Shown: in pieces, positions 5,169 to 61,732 of the stretch
Layout of the letters: each line of letters begins with the position of its first letter
How positions within the stretch are numbered: the stretch's first letter is position 1
Assembly: GCF_016031625.1 (NCBI RefSeq)
Contig: NZ_JACCHP010000020.1
Span: 186,001 to 250,000, forward strand
DNA length: 64,000 nucleotides
Reading direction: 5' to 3'
Origin: Bradyrhizobium agreste
GTDB lineage: Bacteria > Pseudomonadota > Alphaproteobacteria > Rhizobiales > Xanthobacteraceae
Translations under genes and position numbers: made by a program
The notes under the pieces: generated by a model
Databases searched by the model: none
What the model was told of the DNA's origin: nothing
What the model saw: only the letters and a program-made list of their open reading frames with translations

Positions 5169-5360
5169 CCCTCTCCCCTTGTGGGAGAGGGCGGCTCCGC
5201 TCGTTGACGCGCATTCATTTGGGTGAGGGGTTGCTTCCGCGAGTCGGGCTCGTGGAGAGAACCCCTCATCCGGCGCCATAGCCGAAGCTACGCTTCGGCG
5301 TTCTCAAGAACGGCGGGCCCGAAGGCCGCCTATGCCACCTTCTCCCACAAGGGGAGAAGG
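5169..5360. repeat. Dispersed CTCTCCC/GGGAGAGG palindromic repeat
   Basis: The gap between the SnoaL-like stump and the hydrolase is filled by a composite repeat: CCCTCTCCCCTTGTGGGAGAG, then GGGTGAGGGGTTGC..., a middle hairpin AAGCTACGCTTCGGC, and a closing CCTTCTCCCACAAGGGGAGAAGG. Related blocks are found at 7029, 9871, 9987, 10407, 31919 and 37489. It has no coding signal. Confidence 0.75.
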
Positions 5361-7028: not shown

Positions 7029-7190
7029 GTGCAGCCGCGGGCGCCGCTGCACCCTCGCCCGCTTGCGGGGCGCTTGCGGGAGAGGGTGGCGCGAAGCGCC
7101 GGGTGAGGGCTCTCTCCTCTGGGAGACTATCCCGTTGCGGAGACAGCCCACTCCCCAGCCCTCCCCCGCAGGCGGGGGAGGGAGCGCACC
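7029..7190. repeat. Dispersed CTCTCCC/GGGAGAGG palindromic repeat
   Basis: Starts with the hairpin GTGCAGCCGCGGGCGCCGCTGCAC, continues with CCTCGCCCGCTTGCGGGGCG, GGGTGAGGGCTCTC, and ends CCTCCCCCGCAGGCGGGGGAGG. Same family as the copies flanking the DUF559 gene at 10 kb. No coding signal. Confidence 0.75.
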
Positions 7191-8742: not shown

Positions 8743-9825
8743 ATGACCGATCTTGCCCAGCTCCAAACCCAGATCATCGCCGACATCGCCGCGGCTGCCG
8801 ACGAGGCTGCGCTCGAAGCCGTTCGTGTTGCAGCCCTCGGCAAGAAGGGCTCGATCTCGGCGCTGCTCGCCACGCTAGGCAAGATGTCGCCGGACGAGCG
8901 CAAGACGCAAGGCGCGGCGATCAACCAGGCCAAGGACGAAGTCAGCCAGGCGCTTGCGGCGCGGCGCGACGTGCTGAAGTCGGCGGCGCTCGATGCGCGG
9001 CTCGCATCCGAGACCGTCGACGTCACGCTGCCGCTGCGCGATGCGCCGGCGGAAGCCGGCCGCATCCATCCGCTGAGCCAGGTCTGGGACGAGCTCACCA
9101 CCATCTTCGCCGACATGGGATTCTCGGTGGCCGAAGGCCCCGACATCGAGACCGACGATTACAACTTCACCAAACTGAACTTCCCCGAGGGCCATCCCGC
9201 GCGCGAGATGCACGACACGTTCTTCTTCCATCCGAAGCAGGACGGCTCGCGCATGCTGCTGCGAACCCACACCTCGCCGGTGCAGGTGCGCACCATGCTG
9301 AGCCAGAAACCGCCGATCCGCGTGATCTGCCCGGGCCGCACCTACCGCATCGATTCGGACGCGACCCACACGCCGCAATTCCACCAGGTCGAGGGCCTCG
9401 TCATCGACAAGAGCTCGCATCTCGGCCACCTCAAATGGATCCTGCACGAGTTCTGCAAGGCGTTCTTCGAGGTCGACCACATCAACATGCGCTTCCGCCC
9501 GTCGTTCTTTCCGTTCACGGAGCCGTCGCTGGAAGTCGACATCCAGTGCCGCCGCGACAAGGGCGAGATCCGCTTCGGCGAGGGCGAGGATTGGCTCGAG
9601 ATTCTCGGCTGCGGCATGGTGCATCCCAACGTGCTGCGCGCCTGCGGCATCGATCCCGACGAGTACCAGGGCTTCGCCTGGGGCATGGGCATCGACCGCA
9701 TCGCCATGCTGAAATACGGCATCGCCGATCTGCGCCAGCTGTTCGACAGCGACGTCCGCTGGCTGTCTCACTACGGCTTCAAGCCGCTGGAGGTGCCGAC
9801 GCTGGCGGGGGGATTGAGCACGTGA
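8743..9825 (+). CDS. pheS: Phenylalanine--tRNA ligase alpha subunit
   Basis: A 360-residue class II aminoacyl-tRNA synthetase catalytic subunit that charges tRNA-Phe as an alpha2-beta2 enzyme. The N-terminal about 85 residues form the coiled-coil tRNA-binding arm; the catalytic core carries [20 protein letters not shown], the motif-2 region [16 protein letters not shown] and motif 3 in [17 protein letters not shown], whose arginine binds ATP. Full length. pheT, its partner, is normally next to it, but a DUF559 gene with flanking repeats separates them here by 664 bp. Confidence 0.97.
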
Positions 9826-9870
9826 GGGCGGCACTCGACTTGGAGTCTGCCAAGACTCTCTCCGTTCCCT

Positions 9871-9922
9871 CCGCGGAGACACCCCTCTCCCTGCCCCTCC
9901 CCCGCAAGCGGGGGAGGGGATG
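9871..9922. repeat. Dispersed palindromic repeat, outer left copy upstream of the DUF559 gene
   Basis: Contains GCGGAGACACCCCTCTCCC and CCCTCCCCCGCAAGCGGGGGA. Orientation matches the right-hand copy at 10407-10460 and is opposite to the copy at 9987-10039, so the left side of the DUF559 gene has two head-to-head copies about 65 bp apart. Confidence 0.8.
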
Positions 9923-9986
9923 GAAAGAGCGTGTGTGGGGCGGCTATCTCATGGATACGTATTCTCTGTCCGCCCGACAGGTCGGA

Positions 9987-10039
9987 CTCCCTCCCCCGCT
10001 TGCGGGGGAGGGGTGGGGAGAGGGTTTCTCCGCGATGGG
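9987..10039 (+). repeat. Left inverted repeat of the DUF559 unit
   Basis: A 53-bp sequence starting CTCCCTCCCCCGCTTGCGGG and ending TTTCTCCGCGATGGG. Its reverse complement is nearly identical to 10407-10460, with about 4 mismatches and one 1-bp gap over some 53 bp. The ATG of the DUF559 gene (10035) lies inside this arm. Confidence 0.85.
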
Positions 10040-10493
10040 GCTGCCAATGGTCGATCCCAAGCATCCGGCCTGGAAAATATCCGACAAGCTGCGCGCCAAT
10101 GCGCGCGCGCTCAGACGCGACTCGACCGATGCGGAGCGAATCCTCTGGTCGGAGCTGCGCGCTGGGCGGTTGAACGGCGCGAGTTTCCGCCGCCAAGTGC
10201 CGATCGAGAACTACATCGCCGATTTCATCTGCCACGCGGCCAAGCTCGTCATCGAGCTCGATGGCGGCCAGCACTTCTCGGACGAAGGCGAGCGCGCGGA
10301 TACACGCCGCTCGACCGTGCTCGAGGCGAAGGGCTTCAAGGTGCTCCGCTTCAGCAATCTCGATGTCATGACAAACCGTTCCGGTGTTCTTGAAACAATA
10401 ATCACTGCCATTGCGGAGAGAACCCTCTCCCCAGCCCTCCCCCGCAAGCGGGGGAGGGAGCAGACCGTCTCCGTGGAGAAGAAGCAGCCATGA
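10035..10493 (+). CDS. DUF559 endonuclease-fold protein, inserted between pheS and pheT
   Basis: A 152-residue protein whose core is a typical DUF559 domain (PD-(D/E)XK/Vsr-like nuclease fold): [20 protein letters not shown], then [20 protein letters not shown], the acidic catalytic strand [11 protein letters not shown], and [15 protein letters not shown]. The D of ADF, the E and D of IELDGGQ and the following Q are the usual metal-site positions. The start codon lies in one copy of the dispersed palindrome and the last 25 or so residues ([13 protein letters not shown]...) are translated from a second, inverted copy. The stop overlaps the pheT ATG by 4 bp. It may be an autonomous mobile nuclease or a repair nuclease; no function has been shown by this sequence. 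Confidence 0.85.
10407..10460 (-). repeat. Right inverted repeat of the DUF559 unit
   Basis: Begins GCCATTGCGGAGAGAACCC and ends CGCAAGCGGGGGAGGGAG. Inverted relative to 9987-10039. It is translated as the tail of the DUF559 protein and ends 30 bp before the pheT start, so pheT's ribosome-binding site GTGGAGAAG lies just outside it. Confidence 0.85.
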
Positions 10494-12898
10494 AATTTAC
10501 CCTCTCCTGGCTGAAGGATCATCTCGAGACCGACGAGCCGCTGGACAAGCTTGTCGACAAGCTCACCATGATCGGACTCGAGGTCGAGAACATCGAGGAC
10601 AAGGCGAAGGCGCTGAAGCCGTTCACCATCGCAAAGGTGATCTCGGCCGAGCAGCATCCGAATGCGGATCGCCTGCGCGTCTGCATGGTCGACACCGGCG
10701 ACGGCGGTGCGCCGGTGCAGGTGGTGTGCGGGGCGCCGAATGCGCGCGCCGGGCTCGTCAGCGTGTTCTCCCCGCCCGGCACCTACATTCCTGGCAAGGA
10801 CATCACGCTTGGAATCGGCACCATCCGCGGCGTCGAGAGCCGCGGCATGCTGTGCTCGGCGGCCGAGCTGCAGATCTCCAACGACCATGACGGCATCATG
10901 GAATTGCCGGCGGACGCGCCCATTGGCGCTGCCTATGCCGAATGGGCCGGGCTCGGCGATCCCGTGATCGAGATCAATTTGACGCCGAACCGGCAGGACT
11001 GCACCGGCGTGCACGGCATCGCGCGCGATCTCGCCGCCGCCGATATGGGCAAGTTCAAGGACCCGACCATCAAGCCGATCAAGGGCGAATTCCCCTGCCC
11101 CGTAAAGGTCACGGTCGAGGACGCCACGCTCTGCCCGGGTTTTGCGCTCCGCCTCGTGCGCGGCGTCAAGAACGGACCGTCGCCGGAATGGCTGCAGAAG
11201 CGGCTGACCGCGATCGGCCTGCGTCCGATCAACGCGCTGGTCGACATCACCAACTTCATGACCTACGACCGCGCGCGCCCGCTGCACGTGTTCGACGCCA
11301 GGAAGGTGAAGGGCAATCTCGTCGTGCGCCGCGCCCGCGAGGGCGAGACCCTGCTGGCGCTCGACGGCCGCACCTACAATCTCGATCCCGCCATTTGCGT
11401 GATCGCGGACGAGCACGGCGTCGAATCACTCGCCGGCATCATGGGCGGCGAGGCCTCGGGCTGCGACGAGAACACGACTGACGTGCTGATCGAATCGGCG
11501 CTGTGGAACGAGATCAACATCGCCCAGACCGGCCGCAAGCTCGGCATCAATTCGGACGCACGCTACCGCTTCGAGCGCGGCGTCGATCCGGCCTTCATGG
11601 TGCCCGGCGTCGAACTCGCGACCAAGCTGGTGATGGAGATGTGCGGCGGCACGCCGTCCGAAACGTTCGTGGTCGGCAAGTCCTTCGCCGACGACCGCGT
11701 GATCGACTTCCCGGTCACGGAAGTGAAGCGCCTCTCCGGCATCGACGTGCCGCAGGTCGAGATGAAGCGCATCCTGACCCATCTCGGTTTCATGATGGCA
11801 GGCCCCGGCCCGGTGGTGAAGGTCGCGGTGCCGTCGTGGCGCACCGACGTGCACGGCAAGGCCGACATCGTCGAGGAGATCGTCCGCATCTTCGGCGTCG
11901 ACAAGGTGCCGATGACGCCGTTCGAGCGCGGCGACGAGCCGCGCAAGCCGGTGCTGACGCCGCTGCAGCTGCGCACCCGCCGCGCGCGGCGCGCGCTTGC
12001 GAGTCGCGGCATGGTCGAAGCCGTGACCTGGTCGTTCATCGCCAGGCCGGCAGCCGAATTGTTCGGCGGCGGACAGCGCGAGTTAGAGGTGGCCAACCCG
12101 ATCGCGTCCGATCTCTCCGACATGCGCCCGACCCTGCTCGCCGGCCTGATCGCAGCCGCGCAGGCCAATGCCGATCGCGGCTTCGGCGATGTCGCGCTGT
12201 TCGAGGTCGGCCAGGTGTTCAAGGGCGATCGCCCGCAGGACCAGTTCATGGCGGCGAGCGGCGTGCGCCGCGGCCTTGCGTCGTCCGAAGGGCTCGGACG
12301 GCACTGGACGGGCTCGGCGCAGGCCGACGTATTCGACGCCAAGGCCGATGCGCTGGCGGTGCTGGCGGCGGCCGGCGCGCCGATGCAGGCGCTGCAGATC
12401 GTGGCGGGTGGTCCCGGCTGGCTGCATCCGGGCCGCTCCGGCACGATCCAAATCGGGCCGCAGAACGTGCTCGGCACTTTCGGCGAAGTGCACCCCAGAG
12501 CGCTCGAGGCGCTCGGCGCCGACGGGCCGCTTGTCGTGTTCGAGGTGATCCTCGACCGCATTCCCGAGGCGAAGAAGAAGCCGACGCGCGCCAAGCCCTT
12601 GATCGAGCTCTCGGCGTTCCAGCCGGTGTCGCGTGACTTCGCTTTCATCGTCGATCGCGCCGTCAAGGCCGGCGACATCGTCCGCGCGGCGCAAGGCGTC
12701 GACAAGAAGCTGATCACCGGCGTCAATGTCTTCGACGTTTACGAGGGCAAGGGCATCGATGAGGCTAAGAAGTCGATCGCGATCGCGGTCACGCTTCAGC
12801 CGCGCGAGAAAACCCTGACCGATCAGGAGATCGAAGCTGTCGGTGCCAAGATCGTCGCCGAGGTCACCAAGAAGACCGGCGGCACTCTTCGCGGATGA
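10490..12898 (+). CDS. pheT: Phenylalanine--tRNA ligase beta subunit
   Basis: An 802-residue bacterial-type Phe[21 protein letters not shown], an EMAP-like tRNA-binding domain (about residues 40-150), the B3/B4 editing domain (about 210-390, with [17 protein letters not shown]), the B5 domain (about 400-480), the catalytic-like core and the C-terminal ferredoxin-fold anticodon-binding domain ([20 protein letters not shown] onward). It completes the alpha2-beta2 enzyme with pheS. Its ATG overlaps the stop of the DUF559 gene by 4 bp, so translational coupling to that gene is expected. The last codons overlap the TauE-like gene by 4 bp. Confidence 0.97.
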
Positions 12899-19733: not shown

Positions 19734-19759
19734 GCTACTCCAGAAGAGAGTAGCGCTCT

Positions 19760-19921
19760 TACCCTCCCCTGGAGGGGGAGGGTCGATCGCGCGCAGCGCG
19801 AGCGGGGTGGGGTGATCTCTCAACACGGGCAGTGCACCCGTGGAGAGACCGTCACCCCACCCCGTCACGCAATCTCGCTACGCTCGATCGCGTGCCGACC
19901 CTCCCCCTCCAGGGGAGGGTA
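19760..19921. repeat. About 160-bp palindromic element, copy 1 (TACCCTCCCCTGGAGG ends)
   Basis: The ends TACCCTCCCCTGGAGGGGGA and its reverse complement are inverted repeats, followed inward by CGGGGTGGGGTGA / TCACCCCACCCCG and a core GATCTCTCAACACGGGCAGT. A second copy is at 24691-24875. The outer arms run parallel in the two copies, but the core is inverted. It fills the gap between nikR and the EI24 gene. Non-coding. Confidence 0.85.
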
Positions 19922-20019
19922 AGCAAGAAATCGCGGCATCTTCGCAGCGGCCAGCCGCCCTTGCCGAAGCCGCAATGGGTGTCTACCTCTCGCGCAGTGT
20001 CTACCTCAGAGGGTCTTCC

Positions 20020-22140: not shown

Positions 22141-23037
22141 ATGATGACCCTTGCGATACATGACCAGCGCCTGGCCAGACCGGGCACCCAGAACGCCGCG
22201 TTGCGCGACTATGATTCGGTGCGGCGGGCGATCGCCTTCATCTCGGCGAACTGGCGCGCGCAGCCGACCATCGAGGCGATGGCGGATGCGGCCGGGGTGA
22301 CGCCGGATGAGCTGCACCATCTGTTCCGCCGCTGGGCCTCGATCACGCCGAAGGCTTTCATGCAGGCGCTCACCCTCGACCACGCCAAGAACCTGCTGAG
22401 GGATTCCGCCAGCATCCTCGACGCGGCACTGGACTCCGGCCTGTCCGGGCCGGGCCGGCTGCACGATCTCTTCGTCACCCATGAAGCGATGTCACCGGGC
22501 GAATGGAAGAACGGCGGCGCGGGGCTCACCCTGCGCTACGGCTTCCATCCCTCGCCGTTCGGCACCGCGATCGTGATCGCCACCGACCGCGGCCTGTCGG
22601 GCCTCGCCTTCGCCGATCACGGCGAGGAGAAGATCGCGCTCGCCGACATGACGCGACGCTGGCCGAACGCCACCTATGTGGAAGATCACGACGGCACCGC
22701 GCCGCTCGCAGCGCGCATCTTCGATCCAAAGCTATGGCGGCCGGATCAGCCGCTGCGCGTGGTTTTGATCGGCACCGATTTCGAGGTGCGGGTGTGGGAG
22801 ACGCTGTTGAAGATTCCGATGGGCCGCGCGGTGTCCTATTCCGACATCGCCTGCAACATCAACAATCCGAAGGCTTCGCGCGCCGTCGGCGCGGCCGTCG
22901 GCAAGAACCCGGTCTCGTTCGTCGTGCCCTGCCACCGCGCGCTCGGCAAGAGCGGCACGCTCACCGGCTATCATTGGGGCATCACCCGCAAGCAGGCGAT
23001 GCTGGGCTGGGAGGCGGGTCAGCTGGGGCTGCAGTAG
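22141..23037 (+). CDS. Ada-like protein: AraC-type domain fused to O6-methylguanine-DNA methyltransferase
   Basis: A 298-residue fusion. The N-terminal part (about 25-130) is an AraC-type helix-turn-helix pair (PTIEAMADAAGVTPDELHHL ... RRWASITPKAFMQALTLD ... LDSGLSGPGRLHDLF). The C-terminal part (about 140-290) is a methylated-DNA-protein-cysteine methyltransferase with the acceptor in VVPCHRALG (Cys264) and the preceding RAVGAAVGKNPVSF. It repairs alkylated guanine in a suicide reaction. Compared with E. coli Ada, the N-terminal zinc-binding methylphosphotriester domain with its second acceptor cysteine is absent, so it cannot sense methylation in the usual Ada way. Next to DUF2244 and nth, another repair gene. 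Confidence 0.93.
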   Translation: MMTLAIHDQRLARPGTQNAALRDYDSVRRAIAFISANWRAQPTIEAMADAAGVTPDELHHLFRRWASITPKAFMQALTLDHAKNLLRDSASILDAALDSGLSGPGRLHDLFVTHEAMSPGEWKNGGAGLTLRYGFHPSPFGTAIVIATDRGLSGLAFADHGEEKIALADMTRRWPNATYVEDHDGTAPLAARIFDPKLWRPDQPLRVVLIGTDFEVRVWETLLKIPMGRAVSYSDIACNINNPKASRAVGAAVGKNPVSFVVPCHRALGKSGTLTGYHWGITRKQAMLGWEAGQLGLQ

Positions 23038-31918: not shown

Positions 31919-32056
31919 GCGCTCCCTCCCCGCTTGCGGGGGAGGGCTGGGGAGAGGGTGTCTCCGCAGAGGGGCTCCCCCAGAGGAGAGAACCCCTCAC
32001 CCGTCGCACTTCGCGCGCCGACCTCTCCCGCAAGCAAGCGGGAGAGGTGCACCGAG
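31919..32056. repeat. Dispersed CTCTCCC/GGGAGAGG palindromic repeat
   Basis: GCTCCCTCCCCGCTTGCGGG, GGGCTGGGGAGAGGGTGTCTC, then AGAGAACCCCTCACC and a closing CTCTCCCGCAAGCAAGCGGGAG. The first part has the same sequence as the left arm of the DUF559 unit but without a nuclease gene. It separates the secreted protein from the nicotinamidase gene. Confidence 0.8.
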
Positions 32057-37488: not shown

Positions 37489-37553
37489 CGCTCCCTCGCC
37501 CGCTTGCGGGAGGAGGGTTGGGGAGAGGGTGTCTCCGCAAGCGAGAGAGGTGA
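37489..37553. repeat. Dispersed palindromic repeat, short copy
   Basis: GCGCTCCCTCGCCCGCTTGC, GGGAGGAGGGTTGGGGAGAGGG, TGTCTCCGCAAGCGAGAGAGG. A degenerate copy of the family at 9987 and 31919, between the convergent hemW and YraM-like lipoprotein genes. Confidence 0.65.
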
Positions 37554-46081: not shown

Positions 46082-46238
46082 CCGTTCCCTCCCCCCTTGT
46101 GGGGGAGGGGCAGGGAGGGGGGTGCCACACGGGGACTCTTTCCGTCGCGCACCACCCGGCGCATCGTCAACACAACCAGTACCTTTTCCTGGGCTACCCC
46201 CCTCCCTAGCCCTCCCCCACAAGGGGGGAGGGAACGCA
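46082..46238 (+). repeat. About 157-bp non-coding element, copy 1 (CCGTTCCCTCCCCCC ends)
   Basis: Begins CCGTTCCCTCCCCCCTTGTG and ends CACAAGGGGGGAGGGAACGC, so the ends are inverted repeats. The inside reads GTGCCACACGGGGACTCTTTC and later CTTTTCCTGGGCTACCCCCCT. A second copy in opposite orientation is at 61575-61732. It has no open frame of its own and looks like a MITE-sized element. It separates cpaE from the TadD-like gene. Confidence 0.85.
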
Positions 46239-61574: not shown

Positions 61575-61732
61575 ATGCGTTCCCTCCCCCCTTGTGGGGG
61601 AGGGCTAGGGAGGGGGTAGCCCAGCAAAAGGTCTCGGTTGTTGATGATGCACCAAGTGCGGTCGCGCGACGGAAAGAATCCCCGAGTGGCACCCCCCTCC
61701 CTGACCCTTCCCCACAAGGGGGGAGGGAACGG
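61575..61732 (-). repeat. About 157-bp non-coding element, copy 2 (inverted relative to copy 1)
   Basis: Reverse complement of this region matches 46082-46238 from end to end at perhaps 75-80% identity: CCGTTCCCTCCCCCCTTGTG, GTGCCACTCGGGGATTCTTTC, CTTTTGCTGGGCTACCCCCT and CACAAGGGGGGAGGGAACGC. It lies between hslV and the acetyltransferase gene. Confidence 0.85.

Follow-up and report, generated by a model that had tools for sequence, protein, structure and literature searches.

The REP and REPIN-RAYT systems are the closest described counterpart of the arrangement reported here. In these systems, short palindromes that are dispersed through the genome and bear an unpaired tail often form inverted doublets, and are associated with an HUH Y1 tyrosine transposase, the RAYT, whose gene is bracketed by inverted palindromes of its own family. 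The RAYTs are long-kept single-copy genes, and GTAG-type palindromes are expected at their loci.

Other palindromes have been described in related bacteria. In PMC3733652, the CGTC-tagged REPs of the Alphaproteobacteria are presented as abundant, often arranged in head-to-head dimers, and without a dedicated transposase, with a tag that is often altered, in some cases to CCTC, and the authors did not decide which enzyme mobilises the palindromic repeats that lack a RAYT, or whether any does. Dispersed palindromes of the genus Bradyrhizobium, Br-REP1 and Br-REP2, are described in PMC5082802. On the side of the enzyme, the DUF559 protein VsrA of Caulobacter is functionally tied to the cytosine methylase ScmA, according to PMC12907096. 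No report of a pairing between DUF559 genes and palindromes was found in the literature searched, which consisted mostly of sources other than subscription journals and preprints.

The locus analyzed here shares the layout of the REP-RAYT loci, with a different enzyme. The window, that is, the whole stretch of 64,000 nucleotides of the Bradyrhizobium agreste genome that was analyzed, contains a DUF559 nuclease gene (10047-10493, plus strand) at the junction of pheS (8743-9825, plus strand) and pheT (10490-12898, plus strand). The pheS stop codon lies within a GTGA (9822-9825) that overlaps the pheT start in empty sites, and comparison with these sites delimits a whole insert of 664 bp (9826-10489). 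The gene is bracketed by two inverted palindromes of one family, referred to here as family A, of which the left copy (9987-10038, plus strand) comprises a stem (9989-10012) and a G-rich tail directed into the gene, while the tail of the right copy (10409-10460, minus strand) is also directed into the gene. The arms are 98% complementary over 40 nt (9987-10026 and 10421-10460) and the match extends to 10038 and 10409, in agreement with the near-identical inverted arms described in an earlier note on this DNA. The same note had correctly placed a third copy further to the left (9873-9918, minus strand), the tail of which is directed away from the nuclease gene, and had recognized the 4-bp overlap with pheT, given that the reading frame ends at 10493 and the pheT ATG lies at 10490. 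Its view that both termini of the gene lie within the arms probably holds for one end only: the right palindrome supplies the C-terminal codons, and the start is more likely to be the ATG at 10047, outside the left arm, than the possible one at 10035, which does lie in that arm, because relatives conserve a methionine at the former position in 18 of the 19 clade-A genes, and at the latter in only 10 of the 19. The family-A stem pattern has seven matches in the window at three mismatches or fewer, against 0.37 expected, including one at 22980 (three mismatches) that was excluded as a palindrome copy. An Rfam scan returned no match at gathering scores, and PADLOC returned weak partial matches only.

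The assignment of the protein to DUF559 (PF04480), already proposed in the earlier note, is supported by a profile search (E 1.9e-38). Across 65 diverse sequences, ten positions do not vary, among them E34, D63, E74, D76, and H80 (numbered from the ATG at 10035), and these conserved acidic and histidine residues are presumably the catalytic residues of the Vsr type. The structure closest to the predicted model (mean pLDDT 86) is 3hrl, an endonuclease-like protein (Z 16.4) that is also matched by sequence (E 4.1e-22), followed by the catalytic domain of the homing endonuclease I-Bth0305I (Z 12.3, rmsd 2.5, 95 positions aligned) and by Vsr (Z 10.7, rmsd 2.2, 100 aligned), although Foldseek alone reached Vsr only at E 0.036. 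The predicted fold is that of a Vsr or homing nuclease, and the protein resembles Vsr and the Vsr-like I-Bth0305I both in the modeled fold and in the type of its presumed catalytic residues. The median dN/dS is between 0.07 and 0.09 within each of clades A, B, C, and E, with dS near saturation. The invariant residues, the low dN/dS, and the nuclease-like model together indicate a nuclease-type protein that is kept by selection.

The inverted palindromes are not peculiar to this locus. Inverted repeats between the two flanks of a gene were scored, with a strong threshold of at least 20 and a lower one of at least 14, and in the genus of the window, where 59 of 60 genomes contain a DUF559 match, 60 regions of complete or well-assembled genomes, nearly all of approximately 20 kb, provided 61 DUF559 loci together with the window, 60 of which could be scored. 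The strong threshold was reached by 50 of these 60 loci and by none of 10,010 mutually overlapping control sites elsewhere in the same regions, and the lower one by 58 of the 60 loci and 124 of the control sites. In the Pseudomonadota, 24 of 56 scored loci (58 new loci in all) reached the strong threshold, in comparison with 2 of 392 control sites, and in a set of named loci, the best 80 of at least 574 candidates, the corresponding values were 45 of 75 and 0 of 807. In the latter set, 76 loci were scored and 46 reached 20, one of which (L352) was removed because its score arose artificially from a stretch of N. Both the Pseudomonadota and the named sets lean toward typical DUF559 genes, because the best-scoring loci were chosen, in the former case from searches by class and phylum, and the flank windows were slightly wider for the named loci and for the Vsr and Y1-transposase controls than for the genus and Pseudomonadota sets. 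The named loci that scored above 20, among the best 80 of at least 574, include, by record title, Rickettsiales and one record each of Nitrospirae, Planctomycetota, and Melainabacteria, while the Bacillota, Dehalococcoidales, and Elusimicrobia records scored below 14. A considerable number of loci lie below the strong threshold, namely 10 of the 60 in the genus, 32 of the 56 in the Pseudomonadota, and 30 of the 75 named loci from the best 80 of at least 574. The enrichment of flanking palindromes that the earlier note had predicted for DUF559 genes is thus present in all three sets, and the control sites (0/10,010 and 0/807) speak against chance or general intergenic repeats as its source.

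The window's own genome, in 75 contigs, has four DUF559 matches. Two of these genes (L002 and L003), which are among the ten genus loci below the strong threshold, were seen by eye to have different palindromes on both sides, their flanks scoring a moderate 16 and 17, and the fourth and weaker match has no flanking palindromes. A weaker class of DUF559 matches, of approximately 60 bits and with an open frame of some 400 codons, is represented by L004/L089 (G000 C18), and no flanking palindromes were seen in the one copy read.

The family of the palindrome follows the clade of the protein. In a tree of 139 DUF559 domains from the window's genus, a recognized palindrome family is found on at least one side of 128, and on neither side of 11, some of which do have a hairpin that the search patterns missed. 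An extra or foreign label was found in only 4 of the 128 (L093, L203, L195, and the window's own gene, where two patterns overlap), and the label of the clade is wholly absent only in L093, although this count is not blind, because the clades were delimited visually, with the palindrome labels displayed on the tree. Out of 278 sides, 206 have a recognized stem, with a tail that is directed into the gene at 189 of these, and solely outward at eight. When the genes are grouped by their flanking DNA, 16 site groups are obtained, seven of which are single loci or nearly so, with two sites for clade B and at most five for clade E, three of the latter being single loci. A T-G mismatch (CCCTCTCCCGC..GCGGGGGAGGG), of the type that Vsr enzymes recognise, is present in the family-A stems of several genomes in the strand reading toward the gene (flanks of L036 and L090, and the right flank of L171).

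The same palindromes are dispersed through the genome without the gene, where they occur largely as inward-facing doublets. In the window, these include a family-C palindrome with a G-rich tail (5169-5230, plus strand), a heterodoublet in which a compound palindrome with a second hairpin is joined to an inverted family-A palindrome (7052-7184), a family-E inverted doublet (19758-19923), an inverted heterodoublet of families A and D (31922-32047), and two family-B inverted doublets (46084-46235 and, with approximate ends, 61579-61730). The places that the earlier note had read as solo copies at 7029 and 31919 are thus each part of an inverted doublet, and the one at 37489 appears to be a truncated family-A palindrome (37491-37553, plus strand). 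In the own genome as a whole, 12 dispersed family-A places, out of 25 family-A places, and eight family-B places were read by eye, and all 20 are inward-facing inverted doublets, the family-B places having been picked as pairs and the family-A places not. Family E has 69 places, 66 of them listed, in which all 26 close pairs are head-to-head, with a spacing of 131-138 bp in 23. The doublets also vary among genomes: none of the 28 comparable relatives, of 29 fetched, has the family-B doublet of 46084 at its orthologous site, and where the window has the 7052 doublet, two of nine relatives show a gap of comparable length, and the others a shorter gap or none. In comparisons of doublet ends with empty sites, the sequences were too diverged for a target duplication to be assigned.

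A second, variable hairpin lies between the stem and the tail, in which pairing is kept while the sequence changes, a pattern of covariation. Out of eight pairs, an average of 7.47 were formed in family E, 7.47 in family D, and 7.09 in family C, in comparison with 4.98, 5.48, and 5.31, respectively, for permuted partners, and in each family none of 2000 permutations reached the observed value; the register of families E and D had been shifted by one base after the stems were viewed, the original register having shown no pairing. The family-E doublet at 19758 is predicted to adopt a four-way fold as single-stranded DNA (-79.1 kcal/mol, z -14), and five single palindromes with their tails have predicted folding z values of between -4.9 and -1.1.

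The abundance of the palindromes is related to the presence of the cognate gene in three of the four families counted. Exact patterns of families A, B, C, and E were counted in the 60 genomes, with three copies subtracted for the flanks of the gene itself. The median number of copies was 17 with the gene and 5 without it in family A (p=0.0052), 12 and 2 in family B (p=0.0012), 13 and 0 in family E (p=1.2e-5), and 11 and 7 in family C, where the difference was not significant (p=0.11), and these p values are too small, because the genomes are related and were treated as independent. All 12 non-cognate pairs of gene and palindrome gave p>=0.062. Genomes with at least 20 copies and no gene also occur among the 60 (seven for family A, four for B, five for C, and four for E), including G059, with 91 family-A copies and an empty pheS-pheT junction, and G049, which has 65 family-B copies without the gene.

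These observations suggest a partnership, hitherto unrecognised, between an enzyme and repeats that it possibly spreads or maintains. It is probable, on balance, that the DUF559 gene and its palindromes constitute a REP-like family with its own nuclease, which would nick the palindrome in such a way that repair copies the doublets. In this mechanism, an enzyme of the Vsr or homing type would recognise the hairpin and tail of its own family when these are extruded or single-stranded, during replication or repair, and would nick them, after which repair or template switching may copy the doublets to new places. The copy that bears the gene would then be the autonomous form, and the doublets the non-autonomous one, as the RAYT genes relate to the REPINs. 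The likeness to the REP-RAYT systems that the earlier note had proposed is supported by the clade-specific palindromes, the cognate copy numbers of three of the four families counted, the gene-less doublets, and the missing Y1 match in the own genome, and extends to an enzyme that is long kept. The differences lie in the enzyme, which is a Vsr-like PD-(D/E)XK protein rather than an HUH Y1 tyrosine transposase, and in the tails, which are G-rich and have no GTAG tag. From these patterns, the nuclease is inferred to move or maintain the palindromes, and its present role may be partly one of maintenance or a host function, because the gene has long been kept at few sites.

The strongest rival, itself rather unlikely, is homing into gene junctions, in which DUF559 would cut an empty junction, such as that of pheS and pheT, and repair would copy the gene in, with the palindromes as carried landing or repair sequences. 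The rank of the homing endonuclease domain and Vsr directly after 3hrl is in line with this account, as is the occupation of few conserved junctions, one of them by two clades: the flanking-DNA grouping places 19 clade-A and eight clade-B genes at pheS-pheT, of which 17 and eight, respectively, are flanked on each side by palindromes of their own. So are the exact empty sites. Of the 30 genomes fetched, 27, including that of the window, gave a resolved pheS-pheT junction, which contains DUF559 in 17 and is exactly empty in six, with the pheS stop overlapping the pheT start, such that the empty variants sought by the earlier note do exist in related genomes. The remaining junctions contain other reading frames (two), a palindrome doublet with no room for a gene (L175), and a short remnant (L179). 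Dispersed palindromes are not known to take part in homing, and this account leaves unexplained the clade-specific palindromes on both sides, the gene-less doublets, and the cognate copy numbers, and has against it that clade B occupies two sites and clade E as many as five, including three single loci.

The insert is bordered by GTGA at its left edge and by (A/G)TGA at its right edge, which is compatible with a 4-bp duplication of GTGA, as is the GTG retained in the gene-less L175 and L179, but such a duplication is not claimed as the footprint of the element, because other reading frames share the junction (L155 and L167) and the insert exceeds the palindromes. In L155 and L167, the junction is occupied by two different reading frames, one of which has no Pfam match, and the site seems to accept different inserts. 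The earlier notion of a single mobile unit is upheld as regards the pairing and the empty sites, and not as regards active jumping of the gene, which, being mostly orthologous at few sites and having a dN/dS of approximately 0.08, is more like a long-kept single-copy gene than a jumping one.

A role in host repair, in which DUF559 would be a Vsr-like enzyme tied to a cytosine methylase, and the palindromes merely regulatory sequences or safe landing places, is less probable still. Such a role is possible for the family, because VsrA acts with the methylase ScmA in Caulobacter (PMC12907096), and the purifying selection and the T-G mismatch of the family-A stem variant would fit it. It does not, on the other hand, predict that the palindrome family follows the protein clade, and the canonical Vsr genes have no such bracketing palindromes, none of 27 reaching a score of either 20 or 14 (three of 30 loci were cut off).

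That another transposase spreads the palindromes, with the DUF559 genes just inserting at palindrome-rich spots, is very unlikely. Insertion sequences are known to target REPs, and Y1 transposases occur in 33 of the 60 genomes of the genus. A search that covered the Y1 family (PF01797), however, returned no hits (E<=0.001) from the own genome, nor from the palindrome-rich G004, G009, G010, and G059, the strongly scoring Y1 loci have different palindromes, mostly of the GTAG type, and neither the clade specificity nor the cognate copy number is accounted for. Among the Y1-transposase loci, 13 of 28 scored at least 20 (two of 30 were cut off), with a GTAG-type palindrome in 11 of the 13. A RAYT as the mobiliser here was rejected, as the own genome has no Y1 match. 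The CGTC-tagged REPs are similar in being abundant palindromes of the Alphaproteobacteria, often in head-to-head dimers, although their stem and tag, as described in PMC3733652, differ by inspection from families A-F, as do the consensus sequences of Br-REP1 and Br-REP2 printed in PMC5082802. The CGTC-tagged REPs are not supported as the partner of the nuclease, with just 10 of 199 DUF559 genes having CGTCATT/AATGACG, the sole CGTC motif looked for, at a distance of 400 bp or less, in varied positions.

The nucleases of this family, known mainly as DUF559, gain a concrete candidate substrate in their own flanking palindrome. If the proposed action on it is correct, REP-like repeats would have two or more partner enzymes that are unrelated to each other, and the family would acquire a role. 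A wider reading, to which a little less than an even chance is given, is that of a second, independent class of bacterial palindrome element found in many phyla, in which REPIN-like doublets would be spread by a Vsr-like PD-(D/E)XK nuclease in place of a Y1 transposase, possibly through the nicking of hairpins or four-way structures that they form, with several pairs of enzyme and palindrome co-existing and co-diverging within one genome.

Some further loci are of interest in themselves. Some genomes of the genus contain the DUF559 system alongside Y1-transposase genes that have GTAG-type palindromes (L372-L401). At L183 (G041), two DUF559 genes lie 525 bp apart, with family-F palindromes at both. 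L084 and L085 (G011 C16) have an identical DUF559 domain sequence and are oriented oppositely on a single contig, with some 590 kb between them, which may reflect a real duplication or an assembly artefact. Three loci with records titled Deltaproteobacteria, Mariprofundaceae, and Nitrospirae (L304, L306, and L362, with scores of 14, 20, and 18, respectively) have a CCCCCTTT..AAAGGGGG-like flanking palindrome with an A-G-rich tail, in which the layout is the same and the sequence different.
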